Positions 4,143 through 24,162 of a DNA stretch of 64,000 nucleotides are shown here, piece after piece. Origin of the DNA: Sinomicrobium weinanense (GTDB taxonomy: Bacteria > Bacteroidota > Bacteroidia > Flavobacteriales > Flavobacteriaceae); assembly GCF_018863395.1 (NCBI RefSeq), contig NZ_JAHKRR010000001.1, positions 62,001 through 126,000 on the forward strand, given 5' to 3'. A program made the position numbers and the translations under genes. The notes beneath the pieces were generated by a model, which saw only the letters and a program-made list of their open reading frames with translations, was not told the origin of the DNA and searched no databases. Position 1 is the first letter of the stretch, and each line of letters starts with the position of its first letter.

Positions 4143-4778
4143 ATGAAAAAAATAATTTTAATTATCGCAGTCCAAGTTTTTACAGGCTGTTCTTCCGTGC
4201 GCCTGGCAGACAGCTGGCGCGATAATGCATATAGCGGGAAGATCCCGGAAAAGGTATTGGTGGTAGGAATTACCGATAATCTCATGGGGCGAAAAATTTA
4301 CGAGGAACATTTGAAAGACGAATTTCAGGCCAGGGGGATCGATGCGGTGGAAAGCCACCGGGTTTTCAGTCCTTCCTTTATGCATTCCCGGCAGTCCGAA
4401 GCGGCTATCCGGGAAGAAGTAGACAAGTTTGCCGACAGCGGGTACGATGCTATTCTGGTATCTGTAGTAAAAGGGGTAAGCGAAGAAGTTTCCTACAGCA
4501 GGGGATATGCCAGAACAGATTATTTCTGGAGAAGATTCGGAGGGTATTATTTTGTGTACCAGGATATTTATTTTGATCCCGGTTATTACGACAGGTATAA
4601 CATATACCATATAGAGGCTTCCCTGTATGACATAAAGGCTCCCGACAGTAAATCGCTGGTATGGGTGGCATCTTTCGACCTTGTGGACCCCGGGAGTATA
4701 AACAGGACCGTAAAAGACTATGTAAGGCGCATGACCAGGGAACTCGAAAAAGAAAAGATCATCCCCGCAAAGTTCTAA
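4143..4778 (+). CDS. Lipoprotein of unknown function
   Basis: A 211-residue protein with a short lipoprotein signal, lipobox FTGC with Cys16, so it is expected to be membrane anchored. The mature part has a mixed alpha/beta look (KVLVVGITDNLMGRKIYEE early on) and a Tyr/Asp-rich central segment (residues about 118-155). It resembles small periplasmic lipoproteins of the DUF4136-like kind, but I cannot assign a function. It has its own Crp/Fnr-box promoter, and its last 4 nt overlap the end of the convergent usp gene. Confidence 0.72.
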   Translation: MKKIILIIAVQVFTGCSSVRLADSWRDNAYSGKIPEKVLVVGITDNLMGRKIYEEHLKDEFQARGIDAVESHRVFSPSFMHSRQSEAAIREEVDKFADSGYDAILVSVVKGVSEEVSYSRGYARTDYFWRRFGGYYFVYQDIYFDPGYYDRYNIYHIEASLYDIKAPDSKSLVWVASFDLVDPGSINRTVKDYVRRMTRELEKEKIIPAKF

Positions 4779-5611
4779 ATGTGCATCACCATTACGGGAA
4801 GCCTGGAGTAAAAGCTGATCCCTTTTATTACGGGCTTTTCCGTAATCCTGTAGAAAAAAGAGTGCTTTCGGTTGACCAATGCAATAAGATCCGTATCCCG
4901 GCTTTCGGCAAAACAGCTTATTCCTGCGGTAGGAGGTATATTGGACAATGAATGAAAAGTGCAATTCAACCCGCCAAAATGGTCTTCCAGTAACTTCCTG
5001 TTTTTCTTCTGGGTTTGGGTCAGTTCCTCCTGGTCCCCGATGTGGATGACCCGGATGCTGGCTCCGAATTTCCCGGCGAGTTCCAGTAAGGGGTTTATTT
5101 CCTTTTTCTCATAGGCTATTTCAAAAGAAGAGGGGAATACGATCTCATTAAACCCTCTGAACCTTGCTTTCCGGGGGATGGCCATTACGGGACAGGAAGA
5201 TATTTTTTCCATGAGGGTCACGGCATTGCTGCCATAATTGATCCCCCTGGCGTTTCGGGCCCCTTTGCTTCCCATGATAATCATGTCGATGTTCCTTTCC
5301 TTTACCAGGAGTTTTACGGCATGGAGCAAGGTATCTTTCCGGGATATGATCTCAACGTGGTGGTTGGAATTTTTGGCAGGCTCCATGCGGAGTATGATGT
5401 CCCGGAGGGCATTCCGGCTTCGTTCGAGCGCAATTTCATAGGCCGGATCGTGCAGGCGATCGGTAGACATGAGGATTATGGGGTAGTAAGGGACTTCGAA
5501 TACATGGAGAAGATGGAGTGTACATTTTTCGTCCCTGAACATAGCAGTCGCATATCGTATGGCCCGCAAAGAGTTCTCCGAAAAATCCGTTGGTAAGAGA
5601 ATTTGTTTCAT
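4775..5611 (-). CDS. Universal stress protein, two UspA domains
   Basis: A 278-residue tandem UspA protein. The first domain has the ATP-binding pattern G-2x-G-9x-G-S (G114, G117, G127, S128) after a strand DMIIMG. The second domain is degenerate, lacks the glycine motif, and ends in a short PVMVMHI strand. Such proteins bind ATP and accumulate under energy or oxygen limitation. The gene lies 95 nt downstream of ppsA on the same strand and probably shares the promoter at 8125-8167. It closely resembles the usp at 29259-30107 (both contain NARGINYGSNAV). No box of its own was seen. Confidence 0.92.
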   Translation of the reverse strand: MKQILLPTDFSENSLRAIRYATAMFRDEKCTLHLLHVFEVPYYPIILMSTDRLHDPAYEIALERSRNALRDIILRMEPAKNSNHHVEIISRKDTLLHAVKLLVKERNIDMIIMGSKGARNARGINYGSNAVTLMEKISSCPVMAIPRKARFRGFNEIVFPSSFEIAYEKKEINPLLELAGKFGASIRVIHIGDQEELTQTQKKNRKLLEDHFGGLNCTFHSLSNIPPTAGISCFAESRDTDLIALVNRKHSFFYRITEKPVIKGISFYSRLPVMVMHI

Positions 5612-11847: not shown

Positions 11848-12108
11848 GAGCATGTTTAAACTGAATTCAAATGGCTAAAAAAATGCTTTTTTGTTGCCGG
11901 CGCGCCACCAGGCCCCTTCACTAAAAACGGCCACTGGCTGTTTTCTTAACGTTCGGTCTTATCTCATAGCTACGGCTATACGGCTTAAAAAAGTCTTCAT
12001 ACGGAACAGCGCGGAGCGTATAAAAATAACCCGGTGGGTTATTTTAGCGAACGAGCCAGCCGGCGCAAGGGTGTTTTTCGCTGCAATCAATCCAGTTTAA
12101 GTATGCTT
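11848..12108. mobile_element. Candidate MITE-like element with imperfect terminal inverted repeats
   Basis: The ends 11848-11866 (GAGCATGTTTAAACTGAAT) and 12090-12108 are inverted copies matching at 15 of 19 positions and bound a 261-nt segment with no credible ORF. Inside is a hairpin of 10 bp (12023-12032 with 12036-12045, loop GGT) and GC-rich palindromic patches (for example GGCGCGCC). The composition differs from the flanking genes. A transposase is absent, so mobility would be in trans. It fills most of the 426-nt gap between the methyltransferase and the exchanger genes. Confidence 0.42.
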
Positions 12109-12171
12109 TAAAAAGGACAGACCGAAACAGTTATTACAGACAAGGTCAAAGTACAAGAATAAATATGCGTT

Positions 12172-13131
12172 ATGGACGATTTTATAGTATTGATAGCGGG
12201 TATATCAGGACTTTGGGGAGGTACGGAAATTGTAGTGAGAAATGCCTTGGTATTGGCCAAAAAATATAATGTTTCGGAACTTTTTATCGGGCTTACCATT
12301 TTAGCGTTTGGTACAGACCTTCCGGAGTTGGTAGTGGCAATAGACGGGGCCTTTTATAATTTAAAAGGAGTTAATGTATCGGGGGTGATTGTAGGTAATG
12401 CCATAGGAAGTTCTGTATGTCAGATCAGTATTGTAATGGGGTTAACAGCATTTTTTCATTTTCTAAAAGTGGAAAAAAAACAGGTAAGGTATATGGCTAT
12501 TGAATTAATAGGTTCACTTCTATTGCTTTTACTTTTAGCTTTTGATCATACAATTACCTGGAACGACGGGGCATTGATGATTGTTGTTTTTCTAATATAT
12601 ATTTTTACAAGGTTACAGAGAGAACCTAAACAATTGCAAGCTGAATTTAAGATTGACAAGAAAAGATCTTTAAATGATGTATTACCGGTCATTTTTCTTG
12701 TGTTGGGGTTGGGGTTGGTAATCTTTAGTTCGGACATTACCATAAAACATGCTCTGAATATTGCACAAATATGGGAAGTTCGGCAATCTTTTGTCGGTGC
12801 TGTTATAATCGGCCTGGGAAGCAGTTTGCCGGAATTGGCCGTATCCGTAAATGCAGCAATAAAGAAAAAACCCGGTCTGTCCATAGGAAACATAATCGGT
12901 AGCAATATATTTGATTTGTTAATACCTCTGGGAATGGCCTCTTTGGTAGCGGATATTCGGGTTATAAAAGAAACCCTATGGTTCGATATTCCTTTTTTGT
13001 TACTTATCAGCATAAGTGTTTTATGGTTTCTGGACGAAAAACGCGGACTAAAAAGAAGCCAGGGCATAATACTTTTGTGTTCATACGTTTTGTATGCAGT
13101 AATTAAATATCTGTTTAGTGATCCGGGTTGA
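12172..13131 (+). CDS. CaCA-family sodium/calcium exchanger (YrbG-like)
   Basis: A 319-residue polytopic membrane protein with about ten hydrophobic helices arranged as two inverted halves. The alpha-repeat motifs are visible: GNAIGSSVCQISIVMG in the first half and GNIIGSNIFDLLIPLG in the second, each preceded by a helix ending in (D/S)LPEL. This is diagnostic of the CaCA superfamily exchanging Na+ or H+ for Ca2+. No Crp/Fnr box is found upstream, so it seems not to belong to the surrounding regulon. Its AT-rich codon use differs somewhat from its neighbours, which may hint at later insertion. Confidence 0.9.
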   Translation: MDDFIVLIAGISGLWGGTEIVVRNALVLAKKYNVSELFIGLTILAFGTDLPELVVAIDGAFYNLKGVNVSGVIVGNAIGSSVCQISIVMGLTAFFHFLKVEKKQVRYMAIELIGSLLLLLLLAFDHTITWNDGALMIVVFLIYIFTRLQREPKQLQAEFKIDKKRSLNDVLPVIFLVLGLGLVIFSSDITIKHALNIAQIWEVRQSFVGAVIIGLGSSLPELAVSVNAAIKKKPGLSIGNIIGSNIFDLLIPLGMASLVADIRVIKETLWFDIPFLLLISISVLWFLDEKRGLKRSQGIILLCSYVLYAVIKYLFSDPG

Positions 13132-14589: not shown

Positions 14590-14641
14590 TGCGCGGAGTT
14601 TAACTTTTGTTATAATAAATAGTCGTTAATATTAAGCGATA

Positions 14642-14684
14642 CTAAATTACACGTATTGCAGGAGCTTGGGAATGATAAATGTCA
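14642..14684 (-). promoter_or_regulatory. Crp/Fnr-type box plus -7 element for hydrolase-PRTase
   Basis: On the minus strand TGACATTTATCA (14684-14673) precedes TAATTTAG (14649-14642) by exactly 23 bp, 52 nt before the hydrolase start codon. Confidence 0.72.
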
Positions 14685-14860
14685 AGTGAGATTAAACTAC
14701 GAGCCTTTCATCGGTGATTTCCAGATTTAGGGCTATGCGAAGTTTTGAAAATTAGGGAAACAGAAGGGGTTTTAACCTCAAAAAATGTAAAGGGAAGTGT
14801 TATTGCACAAGTAGCGACAGAAGAGAACGCCTAACCGCTAACCAGGCCATAAAGAAAAAA

Positions 14861-14904
14861 CTGATGAATATCATTTTTTAAGGAGTTGAGAAGAAGTACT
14901 TTGG
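14861..14904 (+). promoter_or_regulatory. Crp/Fnr-type box plus -7 element for RNA unit 1
   Basis: TGATGAATATCA (14861-14872) is followed after 24 bp by TACTTTGG (14897-14904). This is the only promoter of the set with 24 rather than 23 bp. No protein gene follows; it heads the non-coding unit below. Confidence 0.7.
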
Positions 14905-14910
14905 TCGTGT

Positions 14911-15235
14911 TAAAATAAAGTTCTTTGCTTTTTGGGTAGTTTGATAAAGGAGTTTTCAACCTGTTTAAAATAAGTAAAGTATGGAGTAGGACGTAACAAT
15001 CTTGCAATGTTCTTTACAGTACTTTTGAAGAATTGAAGATTCCCCGGAAACAGGCTTACCAGCGTGTGGGCCTGTTTCTTTATGTCACACAACAGATCAT
15101 CCTGTTATTATTGGAGGAGGTTATGTATCATAGAGGGATGTTTGGTTTTGGTAATAAAACTTATATAACTTACGTTAATACATCAATCCTTCCGAGAGAA
15201 AAGGCTGTCTTCCGTGAAGATGGCCTTTTTCTGTT
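14911..15235 (+). ncRNA. Candidate stress-regulon small RNA, unit 1
   Basis: No ORF with coding character follows the promoter. The predicted start carries AAAATAAAGTTCTTTGC (14912-14928), repeated at the start of unit 2. A hairpin GAAACAGGC (15047-15055) with GCCTGTTTC (15070-15078) followed by TTT could end a transcript of about 170 nt. A second terminator-like hairpin (15197-15232, AGAAAAGGC pairing with GCCTTTTTCT) could end a longer one. The sequence before the first hairpin, GAAGATT(C/T)CC, is also shared with unit 2. The exact ends are inferred. Confidence 0.5.
15047..15083 (+). terminator. Hairpin with T-rich tail in RNA unit 1
   Basis: A 9-bp perfect stem GAAACAGGC/GCCTGTTTC with a 14-nt loop is followed by TTTATG. 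The stem is identical in unit 2. It may be a terminator or a functional RNA stem. Confidence 0.5.
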
Positions 15236-15240
15236 ATTTG
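15197..15240 (+). terminator. Terminator-like hairpin closing RNA unit 1
   Basis: AGAAAAGGC at 15197-15205 pairs with GCCTTTTTCT (one bulged T), with an inner GTCTTC/GAAGAT stem and loop CGT. T-rich sequence lies in and after the descending arm. Confidence 0.5.
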
Positions 15241-15277
15241 TTCTGTTCCGGAATACAATAACACAAAAATGGAAAAC

Positions 15278-15320
15278 TGATACATATCATTTTTTTACCT
15301 GGAAGAAGGGGCTACTTTAG
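15278..15320 (+). promoter_or_regulatory. Crp/Fnr-type box plus -7 element for RNA unit 2
   Basis: TGATACATATCA (15278-15289) is followed after exactly 23 bp by TACTTTAG (15313-15320). It lies 560 bp upstream of nrdJ with the non-coding unit 2 between. Confidence 0.72.
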
Positions 15321-15641
15321 TACCACAAAATAAAGTTCTTTGCATACTGATCGATGAAAAATAAAGCTACTCATGGCTTTGGGGAGAAATGAGGTTTCAG
15401 GGACTTTGATACATGGCCTTGATTTCCCGAACGGGAAAATAACAATAAGGATCGTCCTGAAAGTTACCGGTTAAAAGGCACTAAGGACTTTTCCCGGTTT
15501 ACAGCAATGACGAATAAATGAAAAAATGTTTTTGAAACCTCAGCCATAGGGAATTTTCAATTTTATGTATGGAGATAAAGTCTTTATGAGGTGTAATGAT
15601 CTCGTGATACTTTACCCGTATGGCAAATCGAAGATTTCCGG

Positions 15642-15682
15642 GAAACAGGCTTGCCGGAAGCAGGCCTGTTTCTTCCTTCTTT
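15642..15682 (+). terminator. Hairpin with T-rich tail in RNA unit 2
   Basis: The 9-bp stem GAAACAGGC (15642-15650) with GCCTGTTTC (15664-15672) and a 13-nt loop is followed by TTCCTTCTTTTA. The stem sequence is conserved with unit 1 while the loop differs, as expected for a conserved RNA structure. Confidence 0.5.
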
Positions 15683-15830
15683 TATACTTTTCATCATATA
15701 GGTTGCCGCTGTTTATCAGCGACAATCACCAGGGGGAGGTCAATTGTATTTTTGAAGCACATAAATATTCCGGAATGCGGAAACGTATCCGGGCATTTAA
15801 GGCTTTGAAAATATGATACTCCCCTTGAAG

Positions 15831-15862
15831 GAACAGGGGCGCAAGTCCCTGTTCTTGTTTTT
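15831..15862 (+). terminator. Intrinsic terminator or attenuator just upstream of nrdJ
   Basis: GAACAGGG (15831-15838) and CCCTGTTC (15847-15854) form a perfect 8-bp stem with loop GCGCAAGT, followed directly by TTGTTTTT. It lies 18 nt before the nrdJ start codon, so it either ends unit 2 or controls read-through into nrdJ. Confidence 0.68.
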
Positions 15863-15879
15863 AATCTATAGAAACCGCA

Positions 15880-17610
15880 ATGGATATGGTGCGTTTATCA
15901 TTGACACCTAATGCGCTCCAGATATTGGAAGAGCGCTATCTGCTCCGGGATCCGGACGGAAAGGTTATGGAAACCCCGGAAGAAATGTTCCGGAGGGTCT
16001 CGGAATGGATTGCCGGGACAGAAAGGAATAACAGGGAGTATTGGGAAGCAAGGTTCTTCCGGATGATGAACAACCTGGAGTTCCTGCCCAATTCCCCCAC
16101 CCTGATGAATGCAGGTTTGCCCGGGGGCCAGTTAAGCGCTTGTTTTGTGTTGCCGGTAGAAGACAGCCTCGACGCTATTTTTACCTCACTTAAAAATGCG
16201 GCACTGATCCACCAGAGCGGGGGAGGCACCGGGTATAATTTTTCAAGGCTCCGTCCAAAGGGGGCCCTGGTCAGTACTTCCAAGGGGTTTTCTTCCGGTC
16301 CTGTAGCCTTTATGAAGATTTACGATGCTGCAACCGAACACGTAAAGCAGGGGGGAAAGCGAAGAGGGGCCAATATGGGTATTCTGAATGTGGATCATCC
16401 CGATATCGAAGAATTTATTTCCGTTAAAACGGACCGGGTAAGCCTTCGGAACTTTAACATCTCCGTGGGAATTACAGACCGCTTTATGGCCGCTGTGGAA
16501 AAGGACCTCTCCTGGGGTTTGAAAGACCCCAGAACCGGGCGTGCGGTGCGGAATATACCCGCCAAAAAACTATGGGATCAGATTACCGGAACAGCCTGGG
16601 CCACGGGAGACCCGGGACTGATCTTCCTCGATAGCATCAACCGGGATAATCCTACTCCCGGACTGGGTGAGATACGGAGTACCAACCCATGCGGGGAGGT
16701 CCCCCTGCTCGATTACGAAAGTTGCAACCTGGGATCGGTCAATCTCTCCAAAATGGTAACCGCACATGGAGGGAATTATGAGATCGACTTTAACAGGCTG
16801 GCCGAAACGGTGCATGCGGCCATACGTTTCCTGGACAATGTCATACATGCCAATCACTACCTCTTACCCCAGATCAAATCCATAAGCCTTAAAAACAGGA
16901 AAATCGGCCTCGGGCTTATGGGATGGGCAGAATTGCTTATGCTCATGGAAATACCATATGCATCTACGGGAGCGGTAAAACTGGCAGAAAAACTCATGGC
17001 ATTTGTAAGGAAGGAAAGTTATAAGGCGTCTGCAAGCCTGGCCGAAGAAAGGGGATGTTTCCCTTCCTGGACGGAAAGCAGGTTTTACCCGGATCAAAAA
17101 ATGCGGAATGCCACCTGTAACAGTATCGCTCCCACCGGGACAATTTCTGTCATAGCCGACACCTCGTATTCCATAGAACCCTTGTATGCCCTGGCATACA
17201 GGCGTGTGGGGATACTCGGAGGAAAATCGCAACAGGAACTTAACAAAGTTTTCAAAACAAAAATATCCCGGATGGGCTACTGGAGCGAACACCTGGAGAA
17301 TACGGTATTGCAAACGGGTTCCATTCAAAAAATACAGGGCATTCCCGAACAGGTGAAAAATATCTTTAAGACCAGCCTGGATATTCCCTGGGAATTTCAC
17401 CTGCAACACCAAAGGGCTTTCCAGACATTCACGGACAATTCGGTTTCCAAGACCATTAACCTTCCGGCAGAAGCCGGGGCCGGGGATATTTCCGATGTGT
17501 ATATGACAGCATGGAAGTACGGATTGAAAGGGATAACCATATACAGGGACGGGAGCAAGGAAAAACAGGTGCTGCAAAGATGTAATGTCAGTGCTCCCGG
17601 GGCCTGTTAA
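15880..17610 (+). CDS. nrdJ: Class II (adenosylcobalamin-dependent) ribonucleotide reductase, compact form
   Basis: A 576-residue reductase converting ribonucleotides to deoxyribonucleotides without oxygen. The active-site set is complete: C88 in GQLSACFVLP and C282 in ESCNLGSVNL as the redox pair, and C271 and E273 in the motif NPCGE. The 11-residue gap between C271 and C282 is that of class II enzymes. The tail carries C568 and C576 for re-reduction. It is shorter than most NrdJ proteins and has no N-terminal ATP-cone, although an ATP-cone protein is encoded at 21938. An oxygen-independent reductase fits a low-oxygen regulon. Its stop overlaps the convergent DUF2267 gene by 4 nt. Confidence 0.93.
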   Translation: MDMVRLSLTPNALQILEERYLLRDPDGKVMETPEEMFRRVSEWIAGTERNNREYWEARFFRMMNNLEFLPNSPTLMNAGLPGGQLSACFVLPVEDSLDAIFTSLKNAALIHQSGGGTGYNFSRLRPKGALVSTSKGFSSGPVAFMKIYDAATEHVKQGGKRRGANMGILNVDHPDIEEFISVKTDRVSLRNFNISVGITDRFMAAVEKDLSWGLKDPRTGRAVRNIPAKKLWDQITGTAWATGDPGLIFLDSINRDNPTPGLGEIRSTNPCGEVPLLDYESCNLGSVNLSKMVTAHGGNYEIDFNRLAETVHAAIRFLDNVIHANHYLLPQIKSISLKNRKIGLGLMGWAELLMLMEIPYASTGAVKLAEKLMAFVRKESYKASASLAEERGCFPSWTESRFYPDQKMRNATCNSIAPTGTISVIADTSYSIEPLYALAYRRVGILGGKSQQELNKVFKTKISRMGYWSEHLENTVLQTGSIQKIQGIPEQVKNIFKTSLDIPWEFHLQHQRAFQTFTDNSVSKTINLPAEAGAGDISDVYMTAWKYGLKGITIYRDGSKEKQVLQRCNVSAPGAC

Positions 17611-18670: not shown

Positions 18671-18713
18671 TGAAAGTATATGAAATATGTCATGTATAAA
18701 ATGATAAATATCA
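18671..18713 (-). promoter_or_regulatory. Crp/Fnr-type box plus -7 element for the WG-repeat operon
   Basis: On the minus strand TGATATTTATCA (18713-18702) precedes TACTTTCA (18678-18671) by exactly 23 bp. The same 12-mer, in its own reading direction, is used by the divergent promoter at 18735. Confidence 0.75.
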
Positions 18714-18734
18714 GTGTATAAGAGAGTGGTACAT

Positions 18735-18777
18735 TGATATTTATCATGTTTTTTGTTCCGGGGGAGCTTTATTTTTG
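18735..18777 (+). promoter_or_regulatory. Crp/Fnr-type box plus -7 element for the usp-usp...cls operon
   Basis: TGATATTTATCA (18735-18746) precedes TATTTTTG (18770-18777), a perfect TANNTTTG, by exactly 23 bp. The predicted start site near 18783 lies after the ATG at 18781, so translation should begin at the ATG at 18799. Confidence 0.78.
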
Positions 18778-21937: not shown

Positions 21938-22792
21938 ATGAGTAATCCCCATTCGTTTAAAATTACAAAGGCCTCGGGAGAGCAAGCCGATTTTTCTTAT
22001 GAGAAGCTCCGGGCCTCCCTGAAACACACCGGGGCGGGAGACCAGCTTATAGAACATATTATACGGACGGTTCACGATGAGCTTTACCCCGGTATTTCCA
22101 CCCGGGAAATATACAACCGAGCTTTTGCCATGCTTCGGAAAGATACCCCGGTATTTGCTTCAAAGTACAAACTCAAAAAGGCAATTTACGAACTGGGGCC
22201 GTCCGGTTTTCCCTTTGAGAGGTTTATAGGAGCGGTTTTGCAGTATTCGGGGTATAAAAATGAAATAGGAAAGGTGATCCCGGGAACCTGTGTGCATCAT
22301 GAAATTGATGTCTTTGCACGGAAAAACGGGACAGTAACCCTGGTAGAGTGTAAATTCCATGGTGATCAAGGCAGAAAATGCGATGTTAAGATCCCCCTCT
22401 ATATTCATTCCAGGTTCCTGGACATAAACAGCGCCTGGAAGGCGCATGCCGAAAACAATTTGACAGGGTCATGGGTGGTGACCAATACCCGTTTTACGTT
22501 CGACGCCCTGAAATACGGCCGGTGTGCCGGACTTTATTTGTTGAGCTGGGACCATCCTGAAGAAAACAGCCTGAAAGACCGGATAGACCGCCTCGGGTTG
22601 CATCCCGTCACATCTTCCACTTTAATGACAAAGCGGGAAAAACAGTTTTTGCTGGATAAGGGCATCGTACTTTGCAGGGATCTGCACAAAGAATCCTTTA
22701 TGCTCGATCATATCGGCGTTTCCGAAAAAAGGAAGAAAAATATACTGCGGGAGATCTGTGAACTGTGCCATGTAAATCGCCTCGCGGAATGA
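21938..22792 (+). CDS. ATP-cone domain fused to a PD-(D/E)XK nuclease-like domain
   Basis: A 284-residue protein with three parts. Residues 1 to about 95 match an ATP-cone (FKITKASGEQADFSYEKLRAS), the nucleotide-sensing domain usual in ribonucleotide reductases and NrdR. Residues about 96-200 match an Mrr-like endonuclease fold with D124, E137 and K139 in HEIDVFARKNG...VECKF. The C-terminus (235-284) is a helix-hairpin-helix-like segment. Both catalytic acids and the Lys are present, so it could be an active nucleotide-gated nuclease. It overlaps the next gene by 4 nt. Confidence 0.8.
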   Translation: MSNPHSFKITKASGEQADFSYEKLRASLKHTGAGDQLIEHIIRTVHDELYPGISTREIYNRAFAMLRKDTPVFASKYKLKKAIYELGPSGFPFERFIGAVLQYSGYKNEIGKVIPGTCVHHEIDVFARKNGTVTLVECKFHGDQGRKCDVKIPLYIHSRFLDINSAWKAHAENNLTGSWVVTNTRFTFDALKYGRCAGLYLLSWDHPEENSLKDRIDRLGLHPVTSSTLMTKREKQFLLDKGIVLCRDLHKESFMLDHIGVSEKRKKNILREICELCHVNRLAE

Positions 22793-24162
22793 AAAAAGAG
22801 GTCAAAATACATTTCCTGGGAGCCGCCGGGACTGTTACGGGCTCCAAATTCCTGGTAAAGACTTCAGACCTGAAGTTTCTGATAGACTGCGGATTGTTCC
22901 AGGGCGCCAAGTCATGGCGGGAACTGAACTGGCAGGGGATGAAGTTCGACGTAACAAAGCTGGATGTTGTACTTCTTACCCACGGCCACCTCGATCATGT
23001 AGGGTATTTGCCCAGGCTGGTAAAACAGGGGTTTAGAGGCAAGATATATGGTACTGCCCCTACACTGGCCATAACCCGGATCATATTAAAAGACAGTGCC
23101 AAAATACAGGAGGAAGATGCCGAACTCGCCAATAAAGAAGGGTTTTCCAGGCACCACCCGGCCCTGCCGTTATATACGGAAGAGGATGTGGAAAAGACCC
23201 TGCAATACCTGGAAACACAGCCCTGTGACCACTGGATACGTTTATCCGGGGATATTGCCGTGCGGTTCCGGTATAACGGTCACATTTTGGGAGCGACGTT
23301 TATAGAAACGGACATCTATGGCAAACGCTTTGTGTTTTCCGGGGATATCGGCAGGCCGGGCGACCTGCTTTTGTTTGATCCCGACAAACCGGATAAGGCC
23401 GATTATCTCTTTATAGAGACCACCTATGGCGACCGCATCCATTCCGGGGAAGATGCACGGGAGATACTTGCCTCCATGATCGGGGAAACCATACACAAAA
23501 GAGGGAACCTGATTATCCCGAGTTTTGCCGTGGAGCGAACACAGGTACTGATCGTTCTGTTATGGGAGCTGTATAAAAAAAATAAGATACCCCGTATCCC
23601 GGTGGTCATAGACAGTCCGATGGGAGAAGAGGTCCTGCGGGTTTTTCTGCAGTACCCGGACTGGCATAAGGTAAGCCGGGATGAATTCAGGGCGGTATTA
23701 AACTATGTGAAAATTGTCGATTCTTACCGGGAAACCTGGAATGTCATAGACAATACCCAGCCCAAAATAGTGATTGCCGGGAGCGGTATGGCTACCGGGG
23801 GAAGGGTACTGACCTATTTGAAACAGCTTATCGATGAAGAAAGTACTACCGTACTTCTGGTAGGCTTCCAGGCCGAAGGGACCAGGGGAAGGGACCTTAA
23901 GGAAGGGGCGAAGGAGATCAGGTTTTTCGGCAAATATTATCCTGTGCGTGCCCGGATCGAATGCCTGGACGCTCTTTCGGCCCATGCAGATCAAAAAGAA
24001 TTATTAAATTGGTTATCCGGAATAGAAGGAAAGCCGGAAAAAGTTTTTCTCATCCACGGAGAGCCTGAAAGCGCACGGGTTTTCGGGGAGAAAATTAAAG
24101 AGGTATATTCCTGGGATTCCTGTATCCCGGAACACAATGATGTTATAAGATTATTACTTTAA
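22789..24162 (+). CDS. Metallo-beta-lactamase/beta-CASP RNase-like protein
   Basis: A 457-residue protein with the zinc motif H65-G-H67-L-D69-H70, a beta-CASP insertion, and the C-terminal SAHADQKELLNWL and FLIHGEPES motifs. This layout is that of the CPSF-73/YSH1-like RNA processing nucleases (RMMBL group) that cleave or trim RNA. The ATG at 22789 overlaps the previous stop (ATGA). I prefer it over the in-frame ATG at 22765 because the conserved fold begins at VKIHFLGAAGTVTGSKF. It is followed 13 nt later by cardiolipin synthase. Confidence 0.9.
   Translation: MKKEVKIHFLGAAGTVTGSKFLVKTSDLKFLIDCGLFQGAKSWRELNWQGMKFDVTKLDVVLLTHGHLDHVGYLPRLVKQGFRGKIYGTAPTLAITRIILKDSAKIQEEDAELANKEGFSRHHPALPLYTEEDVEKTLQYLETQPCDHWIRLSGDIAVRFRYNGHILGATFIETDIYGKRFVFSGDIGRPGDLLLFDPDKPDKADYLFIETTYGDRIHSGEDAREILASMIGETIHKRGNLIIPSFAVERTQVLIVLLWELYKKNKIPRIPVVIDSPMGEEVLRVFLQYPDWHKVSRDEFRAVLNYVKIVDSYRETWNVIDNTQPKIVIAGSGMATGGRVLTYLKQLIDEESTTVLLVGFQAEGTRGRDLKEGAKEIRFFGKYYPVRARIECLDALSAHADQKELLNWLSGIEGKPEKVFLIHGEPESARVFGEKIKEVYSWDSCIPEHNDVIRLLL

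Follow-up and report, generated by a model that had tools for sequence, protein, structure and literature searches.

Two FNR-like box-led stretches of a Sinomicrobium genome as probable members of a family of arrayed structured RNAs

In a 64,000-nucleotide stretch of the Sinomicrobium weinanense genome (here called the window; the genome is G000), two neighboring box-led stretches, A and B, look like members of an apparently undescribed family, which has a probability of about 0.93 of being a real structured RNA. The locus would give rise to two non-coding RNAs, both structured as short arrays of double-hairpin units (P1 + P2), and their FNR-like promoters lie in an island with many universal stress protein genes. 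The predicted RNA structure, the family, the promoter layout and the absence of a conserved ORF are supported by sequence comparison. To our knowledge, RNA regulation in the Flavobacteriaceae has been little studied.

Results

Each stretch begins with an exact match to one FNR-like pattern (CTGATGAATATCAT in A and CTGATACATATCAT in B), followed by a -7-like element and then by the 17-mer AAAATAAAGTTCTTTGC, which is common to both stretches (14912-14928 and 15327-15343). With up to two mismatches the pattern has 19 matches in the window, against 6.51 expected. The -7-like elements, TACTTTGG and TACTTTAG, are named after the Bacteroidota consensus. About 330 nt follow in A and 535 nt in B, with no conserved ORF. 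A sequence-only reading had described two box-led stretches with a common start, and the exact boxes and the 17-mer bear this out. Elsewhere in the window, at 18701-18747, the gap that separates a WG-repeat ORF from a universal stress protein gene holds two FNR-like boxes with a spacing of 33 nt.

Both stretches contain GAAGATT(C/T)CC followed by GAAACAGGC...GCCTGTTTC, at 15035-15078 in A and 15630-15672 in B. The earlier reading had seen these as an element ahead of a 9-bp stem. Both are present, but the stem of the shared hairpin has 13 bp in nine aligned copies, and GAAGATT.CC is itself the 3' strand of a long stem, whose upstream partners are GGAGTTTTCAA and GGAATTTTCAA. The fold z-scores are -4.09 for A and -9.18 for B, each better than 100 of 100 shuffles. 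Terminator-like sites number five on both strands, against 0.9 in shuffles, and a further such site (15640-15674) is the shared hairpin of B. The terminator-like hairpins that had been proposed for the two ends were found there (Table 1) and, under the covariance model described below, they are also degenerate P2 copies of the shared hairpin, which gives two units per stretch. In this model A consists of two units, and B has two as well as a long stem that lacks P2. The unit plan is a long irregular stem, P1, made of an 11-bp outer stem, a 3-nt by 3-nt internal loop, about 7 bp more and an inner hairpin, and then a hairpin, P2, of the form GAAACAGGAAG-loop-CTTCCTGTTTC with 12-14 bp.

Table 1. 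Predicted features of stretches A and B (window coordinates)
Feature	Position	Strand	Basis
FNR-like box of transcript A	14861..14874	+	sequence, pattern match
-7-like element of A	14897..14904	+	sequence; array loci with similar layout
A, inferred start and conserved 5' leader	14910..14929	+	repeated 17-mer; leader mostly array-promoter-specific
Unit A-1 (P1 stem, then P2 hairpin 15047-15078)	14949..15080	+	R2, 30.0 bits
Unit A-2, degenerate; P2 is the terminator-like hairpin 15198-15230	15113..15233	+	R2, 19.1 bits, filters off
FNR-like box of transcript B	15277..15290	+	sequence, pattern match
-7-like element of B	15313..15320	+	sequence; layout of array promoters
B, inferred start and conserved 5' leader	15325..15344	+	repeated 17-mer
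Long P1-like stem without P2; 25-nt arms, 72% complementary	15390..15542	+	sequence, fold
Unit B-1 (P2 hairpin 15642-15672)	15549..15674	+	R2, 25.9 bits
Unit B-2; P2 is the terminator-like hairpin 15829-15856	15731..15857	+	R2, 26.7 bits, filters off

The units were scored with R2, a covariance model whose nine training units came from three genomes belonging to two other genera, with no window sequence among them. On a test set of the window and 16 other loci (332,515 bases), for which the E-values are rough, the only window matches of R2 at E ≤ 1 were units A-1 (E 0.0099) and B-1 (E 0.056). With filters off on 14600-16100, R2 added B-2 and A-2, together with four minus-strand matches of at most 11.8 bits that mirror the hairpins. 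The window scores under this model are modest. With its four P1-P2 units (30.0, 26.7, 25.9 and 19.1 bits), both boxes and both leaders, the window shows the features of the array family.

The stems covary. In R2's own alignment (A3), 96.7% of the cells are paired, with two-sided change at 12 of 35 pairs; shuffles give 6.0 and slid partners 1-5. In a larger alignment of 59 units fitted to the model (A4), ten of them from training loci, 94.9% of the cells are paired and 33 of the 35 pairs show two-sided change, against 17.1 in shuffles and 13-18 with slid partners. When 26 units from loci other than those used for training were folded de novo, both P1 and P2 came out again, and 22 of 31 pairs showed compensation; the input was an unfitted MAFFT alignment without L082 and without two window rows, which MAFFT misaligned in alignment A5. 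The letters of P2 are also conserved, seven columns being kept at 58 of 59 units, and the inner loop of P1 is a GNRA loop in 35 of the 43 units that have no gap there. The hairpin itself, in nine copies (8 distinct), has 104 of 104 cells paired and two-sided change at 4 of 13 pairs. The two stretches had been taken for duplicated structured RNAs; covarying stems and relatives in other genera uphold this, but the picture of simple twins gives way to two-unit arrays within a wide family.

The hairpin is a weak query when used alone. A 59-nt hairpin model, R1, matched G000 and G102 among 199 genomes of the family and G000 and G276 among 296 genomes of the order; we discarded the match in G102, a hairpin between two converging ORFs. 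A degenerate P2 pattern occurs in 29 stretches of named genomes, 27 of them flavobacterial, including Winogradskyella, Maribacter, Gaetbulibacter, Psychroserpens, Psychroflexus, Eudoraea, Ulvibacterium, Pelagihabitans, Yeosuana and Pontimicrobium, and the matches in Acinetobacter and Bacillus were set aside as single hairpins without the leader. That the hairpin alone also matches terminator-like sites (G102, Acinetobacter, Bacillus) is what would be seen if the elements were a DNA-level or mobile palindromic repeat, or an ordinary series of terminators, rather than an RNA gene. The fixed place behind a box, the conserved leader, the covariation of P1 and the position signal reported below all speak against such a repeat, as do the few loci per genome (two in G000 and up to three contigs in G548), and we consider it very improbable.

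Five other genomes of the genus were compared with G000, which itself carries a second pair about 26 kb upstream of the window pair (C1:50354-51157). G001 has both pairs and G003 has one, and G002, G004 and G005 have neither a match to the pair nor a close ortholog of the reductase next to B (best 31-32% identity). The second A copy in G000 (4355-4575 of locus L003) is shortened to about one unit, and G001 keeps the full copy. At this second locus the units score 19.9, 18.5 and 14.8 bits with R2 and minus-strand matches reach 17.7 and 14.9; R2 by itself is therefore insufficient proof of units there. Just 3' of the second B copy (L003 ~5171-5412; G000:C1 ~51.2 kb) are the inverted arms AAGAGTCTGTCC and GACAGACTCT, in a stretch that the aligned start of this place in G001 does not show and that might be a MITE-like insertion. 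A PAS histidine kinase and a response-regulator-Crp fusion protein are encoded about 1 kb before the second copy (L003 1066-3331) and are a candidate regulator of the boxes; a Crp-type protein also lies directly 5' of the L088 unit. On the minus strand of L003, at 11858-12220, is a short, truncated-looking ORF resembling a universal stress protein.

One long ORF is found in A. Its frame is kept in three of the five A copies (alignment read by eye), is shifted by 2 nt in G003 and is lost in the second G000 copy, and between G000 and G001 at locus 1 its five changed codons are all replacements. The ORF also runs through the terminator. We rejected a coding reading on these grounds: no conserved frame, replacement changes, loss of the ORF and read-through of the terminator. 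Across 550-nt stretches of 30 array loci the longest forward ORF was within base shuffles at 0.05 in 28; L083 and L088 exceed the shuffles, where the 550-nt stretch enters the next ORF, and L060 stands at 0.06. No conserved ORF with synonymous change was seen in the relatives, in keeping with the non-coding nature first proposed.

Among 397 genomes of the family, 12 others carry the reductase, with 59-64% identity. In the 20-kb islands around it the matches of R1 are weak (E 0.0019 to 0.18), and in three island genomes, two of which share a genus, they are serial, about 180-200 nt apart, with three or four hairpins each on reading; the series are preceded by a box and the leader AATTAAAA(A/C)GTTCTTT. 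R2 matched seven of the 12 island genomes, three of which were sources of the model. A covariance-model search had been suggested by the earlier reading and, run with R2 from other genera, it found relatives across the Flavobacteriaceae: at E ≤ 0.01 there are matches in 64 of 397 genomes, which represent 54 of 237 genera, and 39 of these genomes also match at E ≤ 1e-6. G000 is absent from the list at E ≤ 0.01, which was made under stricter filters. Our inference on the spread of the family is based on the 39 genomes at E ≤ 1e-6 and on 30 fetched loci, of which 18 have two or more units and 12 have one at the cut-off used. Over the phylum, four of 296 genomes match, two within the family and two outside. 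Of the latter, the match in G862 is a coding end plus a terminator and was dismissed as chance; that in G686 is a hairpin that follows a coding end and is preceded by GTTCATTGATTTACA, with no box of the pattern, and is possibly a distant relative. At this place in G686 (L091 700-1040), GTTCATTGATTTACA 5' of the hairpin resembles the array leader, and a CRP-like palindrome lies further up.

The promoter layout is kept in the arrays. A box lies 60-160 nt 5' of the first unit in 27 of the 30 fetched loci (base shuffles: mean 0.216, max 3) and within 450 nt of it in 29, and an exact GTTCTTT is found within 350 nt in 20 (shuffles: 1.31, max 6). Among boxes with a -7-like element, a GTTCTTT-type leader stands behind 40 of 53 array boxes vs 7 of 169 non-array boxes, in a count that assigned arrays by an expression, with some misassigned, and that left out the window's A box, whose -7 element fails the expression. 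The leader is thus mostly array-specific and seems, from its distribution among these sequences, to be a property of the RNA rather than of the regulon's promoters. It might be the seed of a base-pairing regulatory RNA, with the units protecting or presenting the AATTAAAANGTTCTTT-like leader in the manner of FnrS. Its conservation across genera, its near restriction to array promoters and the mostly unpaired state of GTTCTT in the folds of A and B agree with such a role; the covarying 130-nt units and their ordered repetition would be left unexplained by it, and the leader could instead be an initial-transcription element. We regard base pairing through the leader as possible but doubtful, and as the main rival to protein binding or scaffolding.

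By Pfam, the surroundings in the window encode a phosphoribosyltransferase, a hydrolase, a ribonucleotide reductase, universal stress proteins, a pyruvate phosphate dikinase, a P-type ATPase and a beta-CASP RNase. The ribonucleotide reductase beside B is called nrdJ-like here. In 18 of the 30 loci (L059-L088) a hydrophobic protein of about 130 aa is encoded 5' of the first unit; the one example tested had no Pfam match. The next ORF 3' of the array falls in a universal-stress-protein cluster in 17 loci (one tested by Pfam) and is on the opposite strand in nine, so the array is not generally a leader. B could still serve the nrdJ-like gene as a 5' leader, long and structured, or as an attenuator. 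The ATG of this gene (15880) comes 23 nt past the end of the B terminator stem with no TGATN4ATCA box between, and the gene also stands 3' of B in G001 and G003. However, A and the second G000 locus have no nrdJ-like gene behind them, the window has no Rfam riboswitch match, and the opposite-strand ORFs also count against it. We think such a role of B quite unlikely, and it could coexist in this genus with the reading of A and B as array RNAs. The beta-CASP metallo-RNase of the same island (window 22765-24159), which has relatives in islands L048, L050, L051 and L053, is possibly a processing enzyme of the RNA.

The position of a unit in its array (first, middle, last) carries an old signal. 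On a tree of 59 units, with 47 units from 18 arrays scored, position needs 13 changes, against a mean of 22.0 and a minimum of 16 in within-array shuffles, none of 500 being as low. This old signal speaks against a mere copy-number sponge. Sister units occur within single arrays in L063, L065, L060 and L085, and therefore recent duplication also occurs.

Discussion

We propose that the box would activate the RNA when oxygen is short and that the RNA would act in trans. A protein would bind each unit, at the conserved P2 helix and the P1 internal loop, and the array would act as a decoy or scaffold with multiple sites, the roles of its units differing in part. The conserved P2 helix, the internal loop and the GNRA loop (35 of 43) favor protein or tertiary contacts. 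Judged from the sequences, we give a protein-binding or scaffold mechanism a little under even odds.

A decoy for an RRM protein or for CsrA is not supported, as neither protein was found in the RNA carriers tested: RRM_1 proteins are in none of 21 genomes with the RNA and in three of 14 others, and CsrA is in none of a set of 25 genomes that includes 20 carriers of the RNA, and in three of 14 control genomes. A more specific and speculative form of the scaffold, which we consider unlikely, is a low-oxygen-induced modular RNA of ordered, not freely interchangeable double-hairpin domains, in which GNRA loops and the nearly invariant P2 helices would dock mutually or on one protein to form an RNP for the universal-stress programme of flavobacteria, and which the beta-CASP RNase might process.

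Several known RNAs resemble A and B in part. FnrS, an enterobacterial non-coding sRNA behind an FNR-type box, is induced by FNR without oxygen and represses mRNAs by pairing. The likeness is that of a non-coding RNA behind such a box, a functional parallel by the box alone; no sequence or structural relation is shown, and the stretches in the window are two-unit arrays of 330-540 nt. FnrS is in Rfam; the window has no match to any Rfam family at the gathering cut-off. With Rfam 15 at gathering cut-offs, three island loci and 20 of the 30 array loci were likewise without matches. 6S RNA is also a long irregular hairpin; the family described here differs in its tandem units. A 6S identity is not supported, as RF00013 had no match over the cut-off in 25 genomes and one weaker match in G568, although this model may miss Bacteroidota 6S.

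Among described RNA families of the Bacteroidota, FopS of Bacteroides comprises 14 paralogous sRNAs in which a single-stranded 5' stretch is combined with one terminator hairpin and to which the RRM protein RbpB binds (PMC11697453). It shares with our family the paralogy within Bacteroidota and differs in that ours has tandem double-hairpin units and RRM_1 in 0 of 21 carriers. Rfp18 of Flavobacterium psychrophilum is, like A and B, a strongly structured sRNA of the Flavobacteriaceae (PMC9723704); by the available part of that description it is set apart by its action on protease mRNAs, and the word Fnr is absent from this text. GOLLD, ROOL and OLE are large and ornate structured non-coding RNAs (PMC12286853); ours are large and structured too, and differ as repeated double hairpins that are Rfam-negative in the scanned loci. 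FopS, CsrA decoys and 6S each fail a tested feature, and searches of the open-access literature gave no account of double hairpins repeated in order behind one promoter.

The RNA family occurs in about 1/6 to 1/10 of the sampled genomes of the Flavobacteriaceae, in association with both an FNR-like box and universal stress proteins, and offers a defined handle on how flavobacteria may meet the loss of oxygen.
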